Assembly (NCBI GenBank): GCA_947038115.1
Contig: CAMQVF010000004.1
Span: 1 to 53,864 of the forward strand
Direction: 5' to 3'
From: an uncultured Spirochaetia bacterium
Lineage (GTDB): Bacteria; Spirochaetota; Brachyspiria; Brachyspirales; Brachyspiraceae
DNA: 53,864 bases
Made by a program: the position numbers and the translations under genes. Positions within the stretch are counted from its first letter, which is position 1. The number at the start of each line of letters is the position of its first letter. Below, piece after piece: positions 17,407 to 53,045 of the stretch. The notes under the pieces are model-generated. The model made no database searches and was not told where the DNA came from. It was given only the letters and a program-made list of their open reading frames with translations.

Positions 17407-17501
17407 ATTTACTTTAATTCTATACGAAGTTAATACTATTAGTTGTAATTTTTACAAAAAAGTATAGTCTATATAGATAAAATAAAAATAGGAGTTAATC
17501 T

Positions 17502-17705
17502 ATGATAAATAAAACAATGACTATAGGGGATATCGTTGAGAAATGCCCTGAAGCTGTGCCTATTATGATGGCGCATGGACTTCATTGTATCGGTTGTCAT
17601 GTAGCAAGCTGGGAAAGTTTAGAAGAAGGTTGTCGTGGGCATGGAATGAATGAAGAAATGATTGATTCTATGGTCTCTGAGATAAACGAAAAAGTATCTA
17701 AGTAA
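17502..17705 (+). CDS. DUF1858 small redox-disulfide protein
   Basis: 67 aa. MTIGDIVEKCPEAVPIMMAHGLHCIGCHVASWESLEEGC shows the DUF1858/'hybrid-cluster-protein-associated redox disulfide' domain with its CxxC (HCIGCH). The same fold is found alone in many anaerobes and fused to hybrid-cluster proteins; its exact role is unproven, probably thiol redox or cluster handling. RBS AGGAG lies before ATG 17502, and a promoter-like TTTACA, 17 bases, TAGATA lies at 17451-17479. It is a monocistronic gene closed by a strong terminator. Confidence 0.9.
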   Translation: MINKTMTIGDIVEKCPEAVPIMMAHGLHCIGCHVASWESLEEGCRGHGMNEEMIDSMVSEINEKVSK

Positions 17706-17708
17706 AAT

Positions 17709-17743
17709 AAAACCCCTTTAGTTTATACAACTTGAGGGGTTTT
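17709..17743. terminator. bidirectional terminator between the DUF1858 gene and rpsT
   Basis: AAAACCCCT (17709-17717) pairs with AGGGGTTTT (17735-17743). T-runs follow on the plus strand, and A-runs precede it so that the minus strand also ends in T. It serves the two convergent genes. Confidence 0.9.
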
Positions 17744-17755
17744 TAATTTTTTTAT

Positions 17756-18019
17756 TTAGCTAATCTTACTAATAACCAGCATTAAAGAAGATTTCTTATT
17801 AGCTGCTTTGTTAGCATGTATAATAGACTTTCTTGCTGCTTTGTCTATAGCACTAGAGTACTTTTTGAAAGCCTCACATGCATTTTCTTTTTCATTAAGA
17901 CTAGCAAATTTTAAAACTCTTTTTCTCAAAGTATTTAATGTGCTTTTTATCTTACGATTAGCAAGATTTCTTTTGATACTTTGACGTAATCTTTTTTCTG
18001 CTGAAACGATATTAGGCAT
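17756..18019 (-). CDS. rpsT: 30S ribosomal protein S20
   Basis: 87 aa from ATG 18019, exactly the E. coli length, with GGAG six bases upstream; the in-frame TTG twelve bases earlier overlaps that RBS and is rejected. MPNIVSAEKRLRQSIKRNL, then NRKIKSTLNTLRKRVL and SSAIDKAARKSIIHANKAANKK are S20 signatures. It is on the same strand as, and 27 bases after, tRNA-Asp, so both are probably read from the promoter at 18148-18176. Confidence 0.97.
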   Translation of the reverse strand: MPNIVSAEKRLRQSIKRNLANRKIKSTLNTLRKRVLKFASLNEKENACEAFKKYSSAIDKAARKSIIHANKAANKKSSLMLVISKIS

Positions 18020-18046
18020 ACTATTCTCCAAAAAATTAAATATATT

Positions 18047-44598: not shown

Positions 44599-45312
44599 AT
44601 GGAAGTATTAAAAAATACTATATATATAGTTTCAACTCCGATTGGTAATTTAGAAGACATTACGTTTAGAGCAATACAAGTATTAAATGATGTTGATTTT
44701 ATAATGGCTGAAGATACAAGGGTTTCTGTAAAATTGTTAAATCATTATAATATAAAAAAAGAAATGATAGCATATCACAGTCATTCTTCAGATGTTCGGG
44801 TTAATACCTGCCTATCAAAAATAGAAAATGGAATGTCGGCTGCTTTGATAAGCGATGCGGGAACTCCTTGTATTAGTGATCCCGGTGTTAGTCTTGTTGC
44901 TGAAGCTTTAAAAAGAAATATAAGTGTTGTTCCAATACCCGGTGTTACAGCATTCACTACCCTACTTCAAGCTTCTGGTTTACCTTGTAATAATTTTGCA
45001 TTTTTTGGTTTTTTATCTAACAAAGGTGGAACACGAAAAAATCAATTAAAAAATATACATGAAAACGAAAAAAAAGTAGCTATTATATATGAATCTGTTC
45101 ATAGAATAGAAGCTTGTATTAAAGATATTAATGATATATTTGGTGAAGAAACTCCAATTGTTCTTGGACGTGAACTTACAAAACAGTTTGAGCAAATAGT
45201 TAGAGATAAGGCTATAAATGTACTTGATTTTCTTATTAATAAGAGTATAATTATAAAAGGTGAATTTTGTGTTTTAATAGACAATAGGGAACAAAAAAAA
45301 TATAAAGTATGA
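44599..45312 (+). CDS. rsmI: 16S rRNA (cytidine1402-2'-O)-methyltransferase RsmI
   Basis: 237 aa. It has the family blocks NTIYIVSTPIGNLEDITFRAI, AEDTRVSVKLLNHYNI, ALISDAGTPCISDPG, VVPIPGVTAFTTLLQASGLP and FGFLSNKGGTRKNQL, in normal order. It is a SAM-dependent tetrapyrrole-methylase-fold enzyme that modifies the ribosome P site. It is somewhat short at the C-terminus relative to E. coli (the small C-terminal RsmI_HTH domain is absent). flgM follows after 39 bases with its own strong RBS. Confidence 0.96.
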   Translation: MEVLKNTIYIVSTPIGNLEDITFRAIQVLNDVDFIMAEDTRVSVKLLNHYNIKKEMIAYHSHSSDVRVNTCLSKIENGMSAALISDAGTPCISDPGVSLVAEALKRNISVVPIPGVTAFTTLLQASGLPCNNFAFFGFLSNKGGTRKNQLKNIHENEKKVAIIYESVHRIEACIKDINDIFGEETPIVLGRELTKQFEQIVRDKAINVLDFLINKSIIIKGEFCVLIDNREQKKYKV

Positions 45313-45659: not shown

Positions 45660-46580
45660 TTACTTTATAAACTTATTCACAAACTCTACTCTATTTTTGA
45701 CGTTTATCTTTTCATATATTTTTGAAACATGATTGTTTACTGTATTTAAAGATATATGAAGTATTATCGATACTTCTTTATTACTTTTTCCTTCAAGTAA
45801 ATAGTTAGTTATTTCTTTTTCTCTTTTCGTAAGAACTTCAATATAATTATTTTCACCAGACTTCATACTTACAGCAATATTCTTCTTTGATATTATATTT
45901 AAAAAATACCAAAAGAAATAACTAAGCATTACTATATTAAACCATAAATACGAAAGTAAAAATATTATATCTATAATATTAAAATTATCATAAATATCTA
46001 TACTTGAAGACTTAAAAAACTGTGTTAGAGCTAGGACTAGAGTTATAAAAGAAATAAAACTAAGAATTTTTAAAATAAACTTGGCTGATGCTTCTGCTAT
46101 ATTTTTATAATTTTTAATTCCAACTATAAATAAATACACCATTATGCTATAAAACAGCACTACTGATAATATATATAGCTTATTTGTAACTAAAATGGCA
46201 AGAATACCTATTAAAAAGTAAAAAATAGAAAGAGATAGAAATATTACACTTAATTTTGTACTCCACTTAATTTTTAAGAAATTATATAAAAAAGCTGGAA
46301 TAATATATATCATAAAAGAGATTACAAATATTATAGAAAATAATACTAGGCTCTCAAATAGCCCCGAGTATAAAAAGTCAGGTAATGTAATATATGTATA
46401 TAATTTTAATGTCTTAATAAAAAATAATATTGAAAACATCGATAAAAATATTAGATAGTATTTTAGCCACATTACTCTTTCTAAATTATAATATAATAAA
46501 GTAAATATAAAACTCGAAATACCAATAGAATATGATATGATATAAAGAAATAAAAATATATAATTTAAGAATATTGTCAT
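45660..46580 (-). CDS. membrane-embedded LuxR-type regulator
   Basis: 306 aa. There are seven or so hydrophobic segments over residues 1-235 (FLNYIFLFLYIISYSIGISSF, LVLFSIIFVISFMIYII, LSVIFLSLSIFYFLIGILAIL, IIFLLSYLWFNIVMLSYFFWYF). The C-terminus is a GerE/LuxR HTH: EVLTKREKEITNYLLEGKSNKEVSIILHIS, then TVNNHVSKIYEKINVKNR. The combination is a 7TM sensor directly tethered to DNA-binding output. It is co-transcribed (4-base gap) with the kinase-like gene upstream. Target genes unknown. Confidence 0.88.
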   Translation of the reverse strand: MTIFLNYIFLFLYIISYSIGISSFIFTLLYYNLERVMWLKYYLIFLSMFSILFFIKTLKLYTYITLPDFLYSGLFESLVLFSIIFVISFMIYIIPAFLYNFLKIKWSTKLSVIFLSLSIFYFLIGILAILVTNKLYILSVVLFYSIMVYLFIVGIKNYKNIAEASAKFILKILSFISFITLVLALTQFFKSSSIDIYDNFNIIDIIFLLSYLWFNIVMLSYFFWYFLNIISKKNIAVSMKSGENNYIEVLTKREKEITNYLLEGKSNKEVSIILHISLNTVNNHVSKIYEKINVKNRVEFVNKFIK

Positions 46581-46584
46581 ATCT

Positions 46585-47274
46585 TTAGTTTGATAAAGGC
46601 AATAATATGATAATGTTATGATTATTATCTTTATGCTTATACCAAAATTTTCCTTTATGTTTTTTTATAATAGAAACTGCCGTGTATAAATATATATTAT
46701 TAGTATAAGTTTTTCTATATGATATAATACTTTTTTTTAGCATCGACTCTTTAATTGTATTTGGTATTGTTATTCCATCAAAGCTAATACTAATCTCGAT
46801 AAATTTATCATCTAATGACTTTTTATTGAAAAAAATATTCAAATCTTCTTGATAATCAATAATATCATATTTTATATTTATGCTACTTCCAAGCTTACTA
46901 TATTTATAAATATGTAAAAAAATACTACTAATACTGTTTATAATTTTATTTCTATCGATACATATATTAAAATTATCTTCCTCATTTTGTACATAAAATT
47001 TTAATCGTTTAGTTAAAAATAAAGGTTTAAATTGAGATATGATATTATCTAGTATAGGAAAAATATTTTGATTGCTCTTAATTAATTTTGATGATTCATT
47101 ATTTATGTATAAAACGTCTGATAGACTATTTAATATTGTATCAATCATAAAAATTTGATTTTGTATAATTTTATCTTGAGTGCTTTCTTTTATTAATATA
47201 CTGCTAGTTTTTATTTCATATATTAATTGAGAGATCATACAAGAATTTAATTCGTCTTTTGTCTTATCTTCCAT
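46585..47274 (-). CDS. degenerate histidine-kinase-like protein (probable pseudokinase)
   Basis: 229 aa, soluble. The layout follows a minimal HisKA-HATPase kinase. QLIYEIKTSSILIKES stands where 'SHELRTPL' belongs, with Tyr19 in place of His. DRNKIINSISSIFLHIYKYSK matches the N-box helix, but its Asn is replaced (SIFLHIYKYS against 'NLLsNAiKYs'). ISISFDGITIPNTIKE replaces the G1 'DNGxGIP', and IYLYTAVSIIKKHKGKFW replaces 'GLGLaIvkkIveaHgG' with no glycines. The fold therefore persists while phosphoacceptor and ATP-binding residues are gone. It probably acts as a binding or scaffold protein for the LuxR protein encoded four bases downstream. It borders the presumed origin region. Confidence 0.7.
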   Translation of the reverse strand: MEDKTKDELNSCMISQLIYEIKTSSILIKESTQDKIIQNQIFMIDTILNSLSDVLYINNESSKLIKSNQNIFPILDNIISQFKPLFLTKRLKFYVQNEEDNFNICIDRNKIINSISSIFLHIYKYSKLGSSINIKYDIIDYQEDLNIFFNKKSLDDKFIEISISFDGITIPNTIKESMLKKSIISYRKTYTNNIYLYTAVSIIKKHKGKFWYKHKDNNHNIIILLPLSN

Positions 47275-47325
47275 AGTATAATTATTATATCATATTTAGA
47301 AATTACATCAAATATTCTATTTATA

Positions 47326-47342
47326 AATTCATTAATTGAATT
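47326..47342. repeat. 17-bp near-palindromic repeat, copy 1
   Basis: AATTCATTAATTGAATT, arms AATTCA/TGAATT around TTAAT. It is identical to the copy at 47643-47659 and lies 53 bases before the left DnaA-box cluster. Confidence 0.75.
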
Positions 47343-47395
47343 CATTAATAGCAGTAATCAATAAATGAATTCTAATATATGATTTTAGATTTAGT

Positions 47396-47424
47396 TTATT
47401 AACAGTATCAACAAGTTATCAACA
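47396..47424 (+). promoter_or_regulatory. left DnaA-box cluster
   Basis: Three head-to-tail 9-mers: TTATTAACA, directly abutting GTATCAACA, then two bases, then TTATCAACA. Confidence 0.65.
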
Positions 47425-47472
47425 TCTTTAATTATATCAATTTTACTTCACAGATTTTCTAAATCTTAATGA

Positions 47473-47518
47473 ATTATATATATATAAATATTTATTATTA
47501 TTATTAAGGTGTTTATAA
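47473..47518 (-). other. putative DNA unwinding element with DnaA-trio-like repeats
   Basis: Minus strand: DnaA box TTATAAACA (47510-47518), CCT, then five TAA triplets (47492-47506), then a run of A/T only down to 47473. Established for other bacteria: a DnaA box next to 5'-[T/A]A[G/A]-3' trios and an AT-rich tract forms the basal unwinding system. Confidence 0.5.
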
Positions 47519-47642
47519 GTTAATAGATTTCTTATATATGAAGAGATTCGAATTTTATATAAAAACTATGTTGATAATATTTCTCTATATATACGATTAA
47601 ATATTTATCTCATTTTATAAATTCATTTTCAAAATTTATAAA

Positions 47643-47659
47643 AATTCATTAATTGAATT
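47643..47659. repeat. 17-bp near-palindromic repeat, copy 2
   Basis: Identical to 47326-47342. Two bases separate it from the first box of the right cluster. Confidence 0.75.
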
Positions 47660-47661
47660 TT

Positions 47662-47709
47662 TGTTGATAATCGTAATAACTTATTGTAAGTATCAACAGG
47701 TTATTAACA
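47662..47709. promoter_or_regulatory. right DnaA-box cluster
   Basis: TGTTGATAA (minus-strand box, 47662-47670), GTATCAACA (47690-47698) and TTATTAACA (47701-47709) on the plus strand. Confidence 0.62.
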
Positions 47710-47816
47710 ATTTCAAGATATATAACAATTTTTAGACAACTTATTGACTTATAAATCATTTTTCTATATCATTTGTAAAGTATAAATTAATAAATTATTT
47801 CAAGCAGAGGTTGTTG

Positions 47817-48749
47817 ATGCGAATTTTTATAATAATATCTTTACTTGTTATTATTTTATCATGTGAAAAAGAAGCAGTAAATAGTGAATACGATTTTTCT
47901 ACCGAACAAGCAGAATATCCATTAACATTAACTACCCCCTCTGGAGAGATAACAATAAAATCGAAGCCTATCAGATTGGTATCAATGACTTTATCAACAG
48001 ATGAAATACTTTTCGAATTATATAAACCAAATGAAGTTTTTGCTGTTTCTTATTTAGCGACAAATAAATACTTTAGCCATGTTTATAACAAAATCGAAAA
48101 GAATACGCATATTGTTGGTAGCGATGTTGAAAGTATTTTATCGTTAAACCCTGACTTAATATTTATAGCATCATATCTTAATCAAGATACAAAAAATGCA
48201 TTAAAGCTTTCGGGTGTTAATATATACGATATCGAGACTTTAGATAATATTAAAAAATTAAAAAAATCTATTTATGAGATATCTTTAATTTTAGATAAAA
48301 AAACAGAAGGACTCGCTATATTAAGCGATATAGATACTCGATTAAACAAAGTAAAAGATAATGCCTCTAAAATGCAAAACAAGCCCAGAGTATTATTTTT
48401 ATCTATGAATGGATATGTTCGTGGATCAGGAACATCATTTGAGGAAATTTGTAATTATGCAAATATTATAAATGTGGCTTCAGAGCTCGGTTTTACTGGA
48501 GACAAAGAAATTCCCTATGAAATTTTACTTAAGGCAGATATTGACTATCTGATAACTAGTGAATATAATATTTCAGATGACAAAATAAAAGATTTTTTTT
48601 ACAATCATCCAATATATAAAGCTATGAATGTTGTTAGCAATAAAAATATAATTATTTTCAATCATAAAGATATAAGCCCTACTTCTCAATACCTTATTAA
48701 CGCAATAGAGATATTTAGTGACAAAATGATTGAAATTTCATCTAATTAG
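47817..48749 (+). CDS. periplasmic-binding lipoprotein of the BtuF/FecB type
   Basis: 310 aa from ATG 47817, which has AGAGG six bases upstream; the in-frame TTG codons at 47811 and 47814 sit against the RBS and are rejected. The signal peptide RIFIIISLLVIILSC ends in a lipobox. The mature protein has the class III binding-protein pattern: RLVSMTLSTDEILFELYKPNEVFAVS, then HIVGSDVESILSLNPDLIFIAS, a long helix LKKSIYEISLILDKKTEGL, and KPRVLFLSMNGYVRGSGTSFEEICNYANIINVA. That is the family for cobalamin, haem or siderophore uptake. No permease or ATPase gene is next to it in this window. Ligand unknown. Confidence 0.86.
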   Translation: MRIFIIISLLVIILSCEKEAVNSEYDFSTEQAEYPLTLTTPSGEITIKSKPIRLVSMTLSTDEILFELYKPNEVFAVSYLATNKYFSHVYNKIEKNTHIVGSDVESILSLNPDLIFIASYLNQDTKNALKLSGVNIYDIETLDNIKKLKKSIYEISLILDKKTEGLAILSDIDTRLNKVKDNASKMQNKPRVLFLSMNGYVRGSGTSFEEICNYANIINVASELGFTGDKEIPYEILLKADIDYLITSEYNISDDKIKDFFYNHPIYKAMNVVSNKNIIIFNHKDISPTSQYLINAIEIFSDKMIEISSN

Positions 48750-48834: not shown

Positions 48835-49962
48835 ATGAGCTTTTTAAAAGTATTCTTATTAATGATTTTGGCACTCTACGCTTTATCTGCTCAAGAATAT
48901 TATCCTAATAGTGTTAATACAGGAATGCTTGATGAACTTTTAAGTTATTCAGAAGTTGGCAACTTAGAGGGAACAAAACGTATTCTTTTAGATAGAAATT
49001 CAAGAGAAATATTAAATTTGGCTGATCATCAAGGAAATACTGCATTAATGCTTGCGACTCGTGAAGGACATGAAGATATAGTATTACTTTTACTTTCTCA
49101 AAATGTTAATATTAATCTTACTAGTGCTAGTGGAAGAACTGCATTAATTTATGCATCAGATGCTGGTTATATTAATATTGTTTCATATTTGCTTGCTAAG
49201 AACGCTGATGTCAATGTCCAAGTGAATAATGGCACTACTGCCCTACTTCAAGCGTCTGGAAGAGGATATGAATCTATAGTGATGATGCTATTAGATGCTG
49301 GTGCAGATTTTAATATATCTGGGATATACGCTGAGGGTAATTTTACATCATTTAATCCTTATCCTGATATGACACCTTTAATGATTGCTGCTTATAATAA
49401 TCATGATAATATTGTTCAGACTCTATTAAAAAATAGAGTTGATATTGACTATGTAAATGAGTTTGGAGCAACTGCCCTACTCTATGCTATAGGTCAAAAA
49501 AATATTGGAATATCATCAATGCTTTTAGAAGCTGGTGCTCAAGTAAATTTGTCAGGCATATATAAATCATATGCGAATATAAGTCCTTTATCGCTTGCTG
49601 CATTTAATGGCTTAGATGATTTAATTTCACCTTTGTTAATAGCAAAGGCAGATATTAATTTTCAAATGAAAGACGGTAGAACTGCATTAATTTGGGCTTC
49701 TATTGGTGGTAATACTGGAGTGATAGATAAATTATTAAATTTTAATGCAGATATTAATATACAAGATGTTGATGGAAAAACTGCATTAATTCATGCAGCT
49801 CAAAGTGGCAATATGAATGCTGTATCGACTTTAGTAAATGCTGAAGCTTTTATTAACACAGAAGATAATCATCAGAAAACAGCACTTACATATGCCATGG
49901 AAACTGGAAGTATTGATATTATAAATATTTTAACTAAAAGAAGTTTAATATTTAGACAATAA
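48835..49962 (+). CDS. exported ankyrin-repeat protein
   Basis: 375 aa. The signal peptide MSFLKVFLLMILALYALSA is cleaved before QEYYPN. About nine ankyrin repeats fill the rest, each with the (D/N)xxGxTALxxA...G core, for example GNTALMLATREGHEDIVLLLL, GRTALIYASDAGYINIVSYLL and GKTALIHAAQSGNMNAVSTLV. Repeats 3-4 and 5-6 each contain an insert starting SGIY, suggesting an ancient duplication of a repeat pair. It is periplasmic or surface-located, with a protein-binding role; partner unknown. RBS GGAGATAG lies before the ATG. A TATAAT at 48799-48804 may be its -10, but the -35 is weak. Confidence 0.9.
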   Translation: MSFLKVFLLMILALYALSAQEYYPNSVNTGMLDELLSYSEVGNLEGTKRILLDRNSREILNLADHQGNTALMLATREGHEDIVLLLLSQNVNINLTSASGRTALIYASDAGYINIVSYLLAKNADVNVQVNNGTTALLQASGRGYESIVMMLLDAGADFNISGIYAEGNFTSFNPYPDMTPLMIAAYNNHDNIVQTLLKNRVDIDYVNEFGATALLYAIGQKNIGISSMLLEAGAQVNLSGIYKSYANISPLSLAAFNGLDDLISPLLIAKADINFQMKDGRTALIWASIGGNTGVIDKLLNFNADINIQDVDGKTALIHAAQSGNMNAVSTLVNAEAFINTEDNHQKTALTYAMETGSIDIINILTKRSLIFRQ

Positions 49963-52536: not shown

Positions 52537-52610
52537 ATTTTAACTTAAGCTTATTTTGTATTTCTTTTTGTTTAACTAATACTATAATAAATTATTAGGA
52601 GGTGTATCAT

Positions 52611-53045
52611 ATGTCTGGAAATATAAATATAGTTATTATTGAGGGTAGGGTAGTCAGAGATCCTGAATGTAGTAAAATAAAAACAGGCTCATCGATTTGT
52701 AAATTTTCTGTGGCTAATAATAGATATTACTACTCAAATAATCAAGTGAATAATGAAGTTTCTTTTTTCGACTTTGTCTCTTGGGGACGATTGGCTGAAA
52801 ATGCGGCATTAAATATGCATAAGGGTACTCATGTTTTTATTACAGGCGAAATTAAACAAAATACTTATAAATCGAAAGCTGGAGAAAATAAAACTAAGAT
52901 ATATATTTTAGCATTAGAAATAAAATATTTAGATAAAAAAGAAGTGGTAACTAAGGCATTATATGACAGCTCAAGTTCTTCATATAATAATGATGTGAAT
53001 ATTATAAAAACTAGTATAGATGAAAAGTTAGATATTGCTTTATAA
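52611..53045 (+). CDS. ssb: single-stranded DNA-binding protein
   Basis: 144 aa from ATG 52611, eight bases after AGGAGG; the in-frame GTG inside that RBS is rejected. The OB-fold is clear: NIVIIEGRVVRDPECSKIKTGSSICKFSVANNR, SFFDFVSWGRLAENAALNMHKGTHVFITGEIKQNTY. The C-terminal tail is short and ends KLDIAL, lacking the acidic DDDIPF tip by which SSB recruits other proteins. A TATAAT (52583-52588) lies upstream with a poor -35. It might be a secondary SSB; the main one could be elsewhere. Confidence 0.93.
   Translation: MSGNINIVIIEGRVVRDPECSKIKTGSSICKFSVANNRYYYSNNQVNNEVSFFDFVSWGRLAENAALNMHKGTHVFITGEIKQNTYKSKAGENKTKIYILALEIKYLDKKEVVTKALYDSSSSSYNNDVNIIKTSIDEKLDIAL

Follow-up and report, generated by a model that had tools for sequence, protein, structure and literature searches.

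The chromosomal replication origin (oriC) of Escherichia coli is located apart from dnaA, and its AT-rich unwinding region is accompanied by several DnaA boxes. For Brachyspira, two placements have been published. Early papers put oriC of B. pilosicoli and B. hyodysenteriae at dnaA (PMC2897892, PMC2650404), whereas later papers on B. intermedia (PMC3163572) and B. pilosicoli B2904 (PMC3532143) moved the origin away from that gene; the unlinking of oriC and dnaA in Brachyspira was already published in 2011. In the accessible text, the later papers give the origin approximately and contain neither DnaA boxes nor a sequence. The same text states that the B. intermedia PWS/A chromosome was numbered by the authors from its skew origin (PMC3163572) and that the genes at oriC vary extensively among species (PMC3532143).

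The window (the whole analysed stretch of 53,864 nucleotides) is contig C4 of the 1.77-Mb, 111-contig draft genome of a Brachyspiraceae genus. The element at approximately 47396–47709 is very probably the chromosomal replication origin of this bacterium. The supporting evidence is fourfold: a cluster of DnaA boxes far above chance; the occurrence of the element once per genome and its retention through the family; its position at the replication-strand switch of the three Brachyspira chromosomes that were sampled and, in B. intermedia, at a distance of 11 kb from the published skew origin; and the lack of such a cluster at the dnaA loci of relatives. Like the skew-placed oriC of Brachyspira (PMC3163572, PMC3532143), the element is unlinked to dnaA, and it is a homologue of the Brachyspira core described below. 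The features of the locus are as follows.

44599–45312, plus strand: rsmI, 16S rRNA C1402 methyltransferase; conserved third neighbour
45660–46580, minus strand: membrane protein with a C-terminal LuxR (GerE) helix-turn-helix, 306 aa; constant second neighbour
46585–47274, minus strand: pseudo-histidine-kinase, 229 aa, with DHp/HATPase fold and Tyr for the phospho-accepting His; constant oriC neighbour
47275–47810, no strand: intergenic gap with the predicted oriC, 536 bp, 83% A+T (16.6% G+C); longest non-coding stretch of the window
47396–47424, plus strand: direct DnaA-box triad TTATTAACA-GTATCAACA-ag-TTATCAACA, spacing 9 and 11; kept in nearly all relatives
47396, plus strand: DnaA box TTATTAACA of the left triad
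47405, plus strand: DnaA box GTATCAACA of the left triad
47416, plus strand: DnaA box TTATCAACA of the left triad
47425–47493, no strand: AT-rich stretch of low G+C, candidate duplex-unwinding element
47494–47509, plus strand: ATTATTATTATTAAGG, candidate DnaA-trio repeat and GG spacer (unwinding module) adjoining a DnaA box; fits the box-spacer-(.A.)3+ rule (PMC8287927)
47510–47518, minus strand: DnaA box TTATAAACA adjoining the trio repeat; from the letters and the alignment
47534–47546, plus strand: ATATATGAAGAGA, degenerate copy of the family element ATATAAGAAGAAA; from the alignment
47569–47577, minus strand: DnaA box TTATCAACA, at most 2 bp from the usual Brachyspira position
47662–47670, minus strand: DnaA box TTATCAACA; from the letters and the alignment
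47690–47709, plus strand: outer direct pair GTATCAACA-gg-TTATTAACA, spacing 11, boxes at 47690 and 47701
47811–48749, plus strand: gene for a periplasmic binding protein of iron type, on the side of oriC that varies; possible ATG at 47817

The original prediction had described the gap as the longest non-coding stretch, flanked by diverging genes and holding eight 9-mers, six TTATNNACA and two GTATCAACA. All of this was confirmed, each 9-mer being present in its place. The second-longest non-coding gap of the window is 338 bp; the 639-bp interval 17407–18045 holds two short ORFs and hence does not compete. The expectation of well under one TTATNNACA also proved correct: in 3,000 dinucleotide shuffles of the gap the mean was 0.45 and the maximum 4, as compared to 6 seen. 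The corresponding values for TTATCAACA were 0.02 and 2, as compared to 3 seen, and the observed box counts were reached in none of the 3,000 shuffles. No other 536-bp stretch in the window approaches the box count of the gap. Copies of TTATCAACA are common in the genome (81, scattered), so that single boxes are uninformative and clustering is what counts. Same-strand tandem box pairs number 11 in the whole genome; three of them are in the gap, and other compact sites have at most one each. Equally dense boxes at other loci, which the original prediction had named as evidence against an origin here, were not found: nowhere else in the genome are tandem boxes clustered as densely as in the gap. 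A search with Rfam returned tRNAs only.

Along the gap, a direct triad is followed by an AT-rich stretch that closes with an (ATT) repeat, beside which stands an inverted box; further inverted boxes and the outer pair come next. The lowest-G+C segments of 40 bp and 80 bp in the whole 53.9 kb lie within 47427–47539, those of 40 bp in the AT-rich stretch and the following repeat, which provides the gap with the AT-rich region expected of an origin. The element is similar to E. coli oriC in being located apart from dnaA and in having several boxes beside an AT-rich, putatively unwinding region. It differs in that the 13 aligned origins of this family lack the TTATCCACA box and have A at position 6 of the box in 126 of 128 cases. 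The likeness to the basal unwinding system of B. subtilis oriC (boxes #6/#7, spacer and DnaA-trios) extends to a box, a short spacer, central-A triplets, and an AT-rich stretch. The box at 47510–47518, the GG spacer, and five central-A units correspond to a DnaA box within 16 bp of at least three consecutive NAN triplets (PMC8287927), a match to be read with the low information of (ATT)n in such AT-rich DNA in mind. In Brachyspira, the trio-side DnaA box stands in tandem with a second box, as in B. subtilis. The differences are that the triplets of this family are of AAT/TAT types rather than GAT, that its oriC is not by dnaA, and that its boxes are TTATYAACA. After the B. subtilis model (PMC6669920, PMC8287927), initiation would begin with DnaA, encoded far away, binding the direct triad and the inverted boxes. 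The protein may nucleate at the box at 47510 by the ATT repeat and from there form a filament along single-stranded trio units; this filament would melt the adjoining AT-rich stretch, and the origin so opened would let two replisomes leave in opposite directions.

Clusters of the same anatomy were readily found in nine Brachyspira genomes. In alignment, the shared core comprises the ATT repeat, a short spacer, one or more inverted boxes, ATATAAGAAGAAA, and a further inverted box. The trio-box core pattern gave one match per genome in 17 of 19 genomes of the family and none in 12 genomes outside it. A comparison of the gap between related species, suggested in the original prediction, thus yielded a homologous site once per genome in these 17. 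A profile search with the core agreed with the pattern in all these genomes, with E values of 1e-12 to 1e-19, or 3e-6 where the core was split at a record end; next-best matches had E values of at least 0.01. In one of the two exceptions, G010, a run of N takes the place of the 5' half of the LuxR gene and the region before it, exactly at the origin locus. The other, G002, represents a third genus of the family and contains no recognisable core, its best profile match being weak (E 0.065); the origin of this organism may have diverged, been lost in assembly, or be located elsewhere. Box-pair matches on contigs C42 and C13 of G002 were rejected as its origin, as they lie within coding-looking sequence or at a contig end.

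In the 13 origins that were aligned, box positions are near-fixed: the direct triad has spacing 9 and 11, inverted boxes stand beside the ATT repeat with another about 53 bp further, and the outer direct pair has spacing 11. The window origin, which belongs to another genus, shares this order with the Brachyspira origins, but its triad is about 45 bp nearer to the trio repeat. Position 6 of the box was left free in the pattern NTATNNACA, the matches to which numbered 128 in the 13 aligned origins; it is on these that the above count of A at this position is based. The TTATCCACA box was absent from all 13. The 13-bp ATATAAGAAGAAA between the inverted boxes hardly varies among Brachyspira origins (cores L071–L087), while in the window alone an element of this type is not above chance.

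oriC is a known kind of element; its definition at base level for Brachyspira is new to the open-access sources searched. No account of the conserved origin anatomy or of a TTATYAACA box (never TTATCCACA) was found in these papers. The approximate, skew-based origin of a genus of intestinal spirochaetes thereby becomes a base-resolved, testable element, which is extended to a second genus and reveals that A at position 6 of the DnaA box is a family-wide feature.

The own genome being a draft of 111 contigs, the strand switch was assessed on the own contig and at the orthologous sites of relatives. The hand-counted skew of the original prediction was too small a sample to carry weight, but the switch it pointed to does appear around the gap when codon-position-3 skew is taken by gene strand. 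This skew was +0.234 for minus genes and -0.050 for plus genes to the left of the gap, and +0.210 for plus genes and -0.133 for minus genes to the right; the plus genes on the two sides differ with Fisher P = 3e-4. Minus genes left of the gap and plus genes right of it therefore have the leading-strand signature in common. The best-fitting switch points in the window are all at 42.8–50.9 kb, the gap ranking third; the top local breakpoint, at 48.8 kb, is one gene off the gap in a window that holds only 6 kb to its right.

For each of three relatives, 20 stretches of 20 kb were sampled, and an origin and a terminus were fitted to third-position counts. Codon position 3 by strand was used since raw GC skew in 20-kb samples is noisy and tracks gene direction. 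The fitted origin interval, one of 20 in each case, contains the core in G017 (core at 1.597 Mb), G009 (at the record start), and G005 (at 1.713 Mb, where skew is weak). The numbering of G009 from the core is not independent evidence, since depositors may have chosen this start. In G013 (B. intermedia PWS/A), the core is at 11.3 kb, counted from the published skew origin.

DnaA boxes occur at regulated promoters, and the cluster lies between divergent genes in a genome through which isolated boxes are scattered. Both facts would suit a DnaA-titrating or DnaA-regulated site (datA-like, or an autoregulated promoter) serving the divergent genes, with the real origin elsewhere. We consider this very improbable and have rejected a datA-like site. 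The cluster is the sole one of its kind in the genome; it stands at the strand switch in three chromosomes and 11 kb from a skew origin in the literature; the right-hand gene changes between species while the element stays; and the unwinding-type module present here is unneeded for a titration site.

The original prediction had noted that neither dnaA nor dnaN stands beside the gap. This was verified: the only dnaA of the genome is on contig C86, and the neighbours of the gap are other genes. In five relatives (G017, G009, G005, G018, and G013), dnaA is separated from the core by 0.39–0.49 of the chromosome, and in the first three the skew fits place it on the terminus side. No TTATYAACA cluster is present at the dnaA loci of relatives, the sister species among them. 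These observations bear, by comparison, on the old dispute of whether the origin is at dnaA or elsewhere. An origin upstream of dnaA, with the cluster as a relic or secondary site, would agree with the earlier location of oriC at that gene (PMC2897892, PMC2650404), and the dnaA contig of this genome starts inside dnaA, leaving its upstream region unseen. The chromosomal distance and the dnaA loci without a cluster argue against such a placement, in line with the shift of the origin off dnaA in PMC3163572 and PMC3532143, and leave it a negligible probability. In all five relatives, dnaA is located in the terminus half, the region of lowest dosage, which is unusual for an initiator gene.

The box-reading loop of DnaA (L053:1-960 and the dnaA of relatives) has the residues HAS in this family, as compared to HTT in E. 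coli and HST in several other spirochaetes. We infer, as a lead only, that this change from HTT/HST to HAS accompanies the replacement of C by A at position 6 of the box. A replacement of Asp by Asn in the reading loop of the window genome's DnaA was also considered as the match for the C-to-A change and was dropped, since Asp is retained in the sister species.

Since plasmid origins may be recognisable by iteron-like repeats and a high A+T content, an origin of an integrated plasmid or phage was considered as well. It was rejected as exceedingly unlikely: of the ten flanking genes that were searched, none could be recognised as a rep, integrase, or phage gene; the left flank of rsmI, LuxR, and pseudo-kinase is kept family-wide; and the element occurs once per genome in the family. 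The chromosomal oriC thus remains the preferred reading. The order rsmI, LuxR membrane protein, kinase-like protein, oriC was present in all ten regions with enough sequence, while the right side varies; an orthologue of the binding-protein gene stands beside oriC only in the sister species. This constant left flank differs from the variable oriC genes described in PMC3532143.

Two short peptide patterns were used to scan 84,980 species, each represented by a single genome, for the kinase-like protein, a search that is not exhaustive. Fourteen relatives were found, 13 of which adjoin the box cluster (in one case truncated past the triad by the end of the contig); the 14th has a single box at a contig end. 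Matches in the named-genome scan were confined to Brachyspira or uncultured spirochaete records. A profile search revealed one full-length copy in each of 17 genomes, located at the origin locus in 16; in G011, the gene is on a separate short contig and the core-bearing contig ends in the triad.

The degenerate two-component pair of the original prediction was upheld in part: the first gene does encode a histidine kinase without the histidine, but the second encodes a membrane LuxR-type protein and not an ordinary response regulator. Tyr19 occupies the place of the H-box His, and hence of the phospho-acceptor, in all 14 members of alignment A2, and the window copy is without recognisable ATP-binding motifs. 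The AlphaFold model of the pseudo-kinase has a modest mean pLDDT of 62.5; Foldseek matched it to histidine kinases with E values of 1e-10 to 1e-11 and TM of about 0.5, in agreement with a DHp and HATPase fold. DivL of Caulobacter likewise bears Tyr at the phospho-acceptor place. The likeness, a histidine-kinase fold with Tyr in that position, is an analogy only: the oriC neighbour is a kinase core alone, and its window copy has no recognisable ATP-binding motifs. DivL works in cell-cycle signalling (PMC4211667).

The constant neighbourhood of a catalytically degenerate histidine kinase and a membrane LuxR gene is the more surprising part of the finding; it was not reported beside oriC in the open-access papers searched, and no study of the two genes as initiation regulators was found. 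G019, from another family, encodes a 656-aa kinase relative with three receiver-domain matches before the Tyr-bearing kinase core, and the 600-aa relative of G002, whose gene precedes the LuxR gene, retains a receiver domain. The receiver domains fused before the kinase in these relatives (L204:3031-5753; L203:5037-7007) are missing where oriC adjoins. oriC is therefore found at the position expected for the receiver-coding part. As a speculative and rather doubtful proposal, the pseudo-kinase and the membrane LuxR protein could be dedicated regulators of replication initiation, forming a sensing branch fixed at the origin in the Brachyspira-type lineage. The origin may have landed in the gene for a larger receiver-kinase protein, or this gene may instead have been trimmed. 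In a check for a simple oriC insertion, the upstream genes of G002 were sought on the flanks of other origins and gave no matches there.

Two further genes are located near the window origin. An ankyrin-repeat protein of 375 aa is encoded at 48835–49962, and its relatives flank several other origins. The gene for a single-strand-binding protein (52602–53045) lies 5 kb from the origin and is also present there in the sister species.
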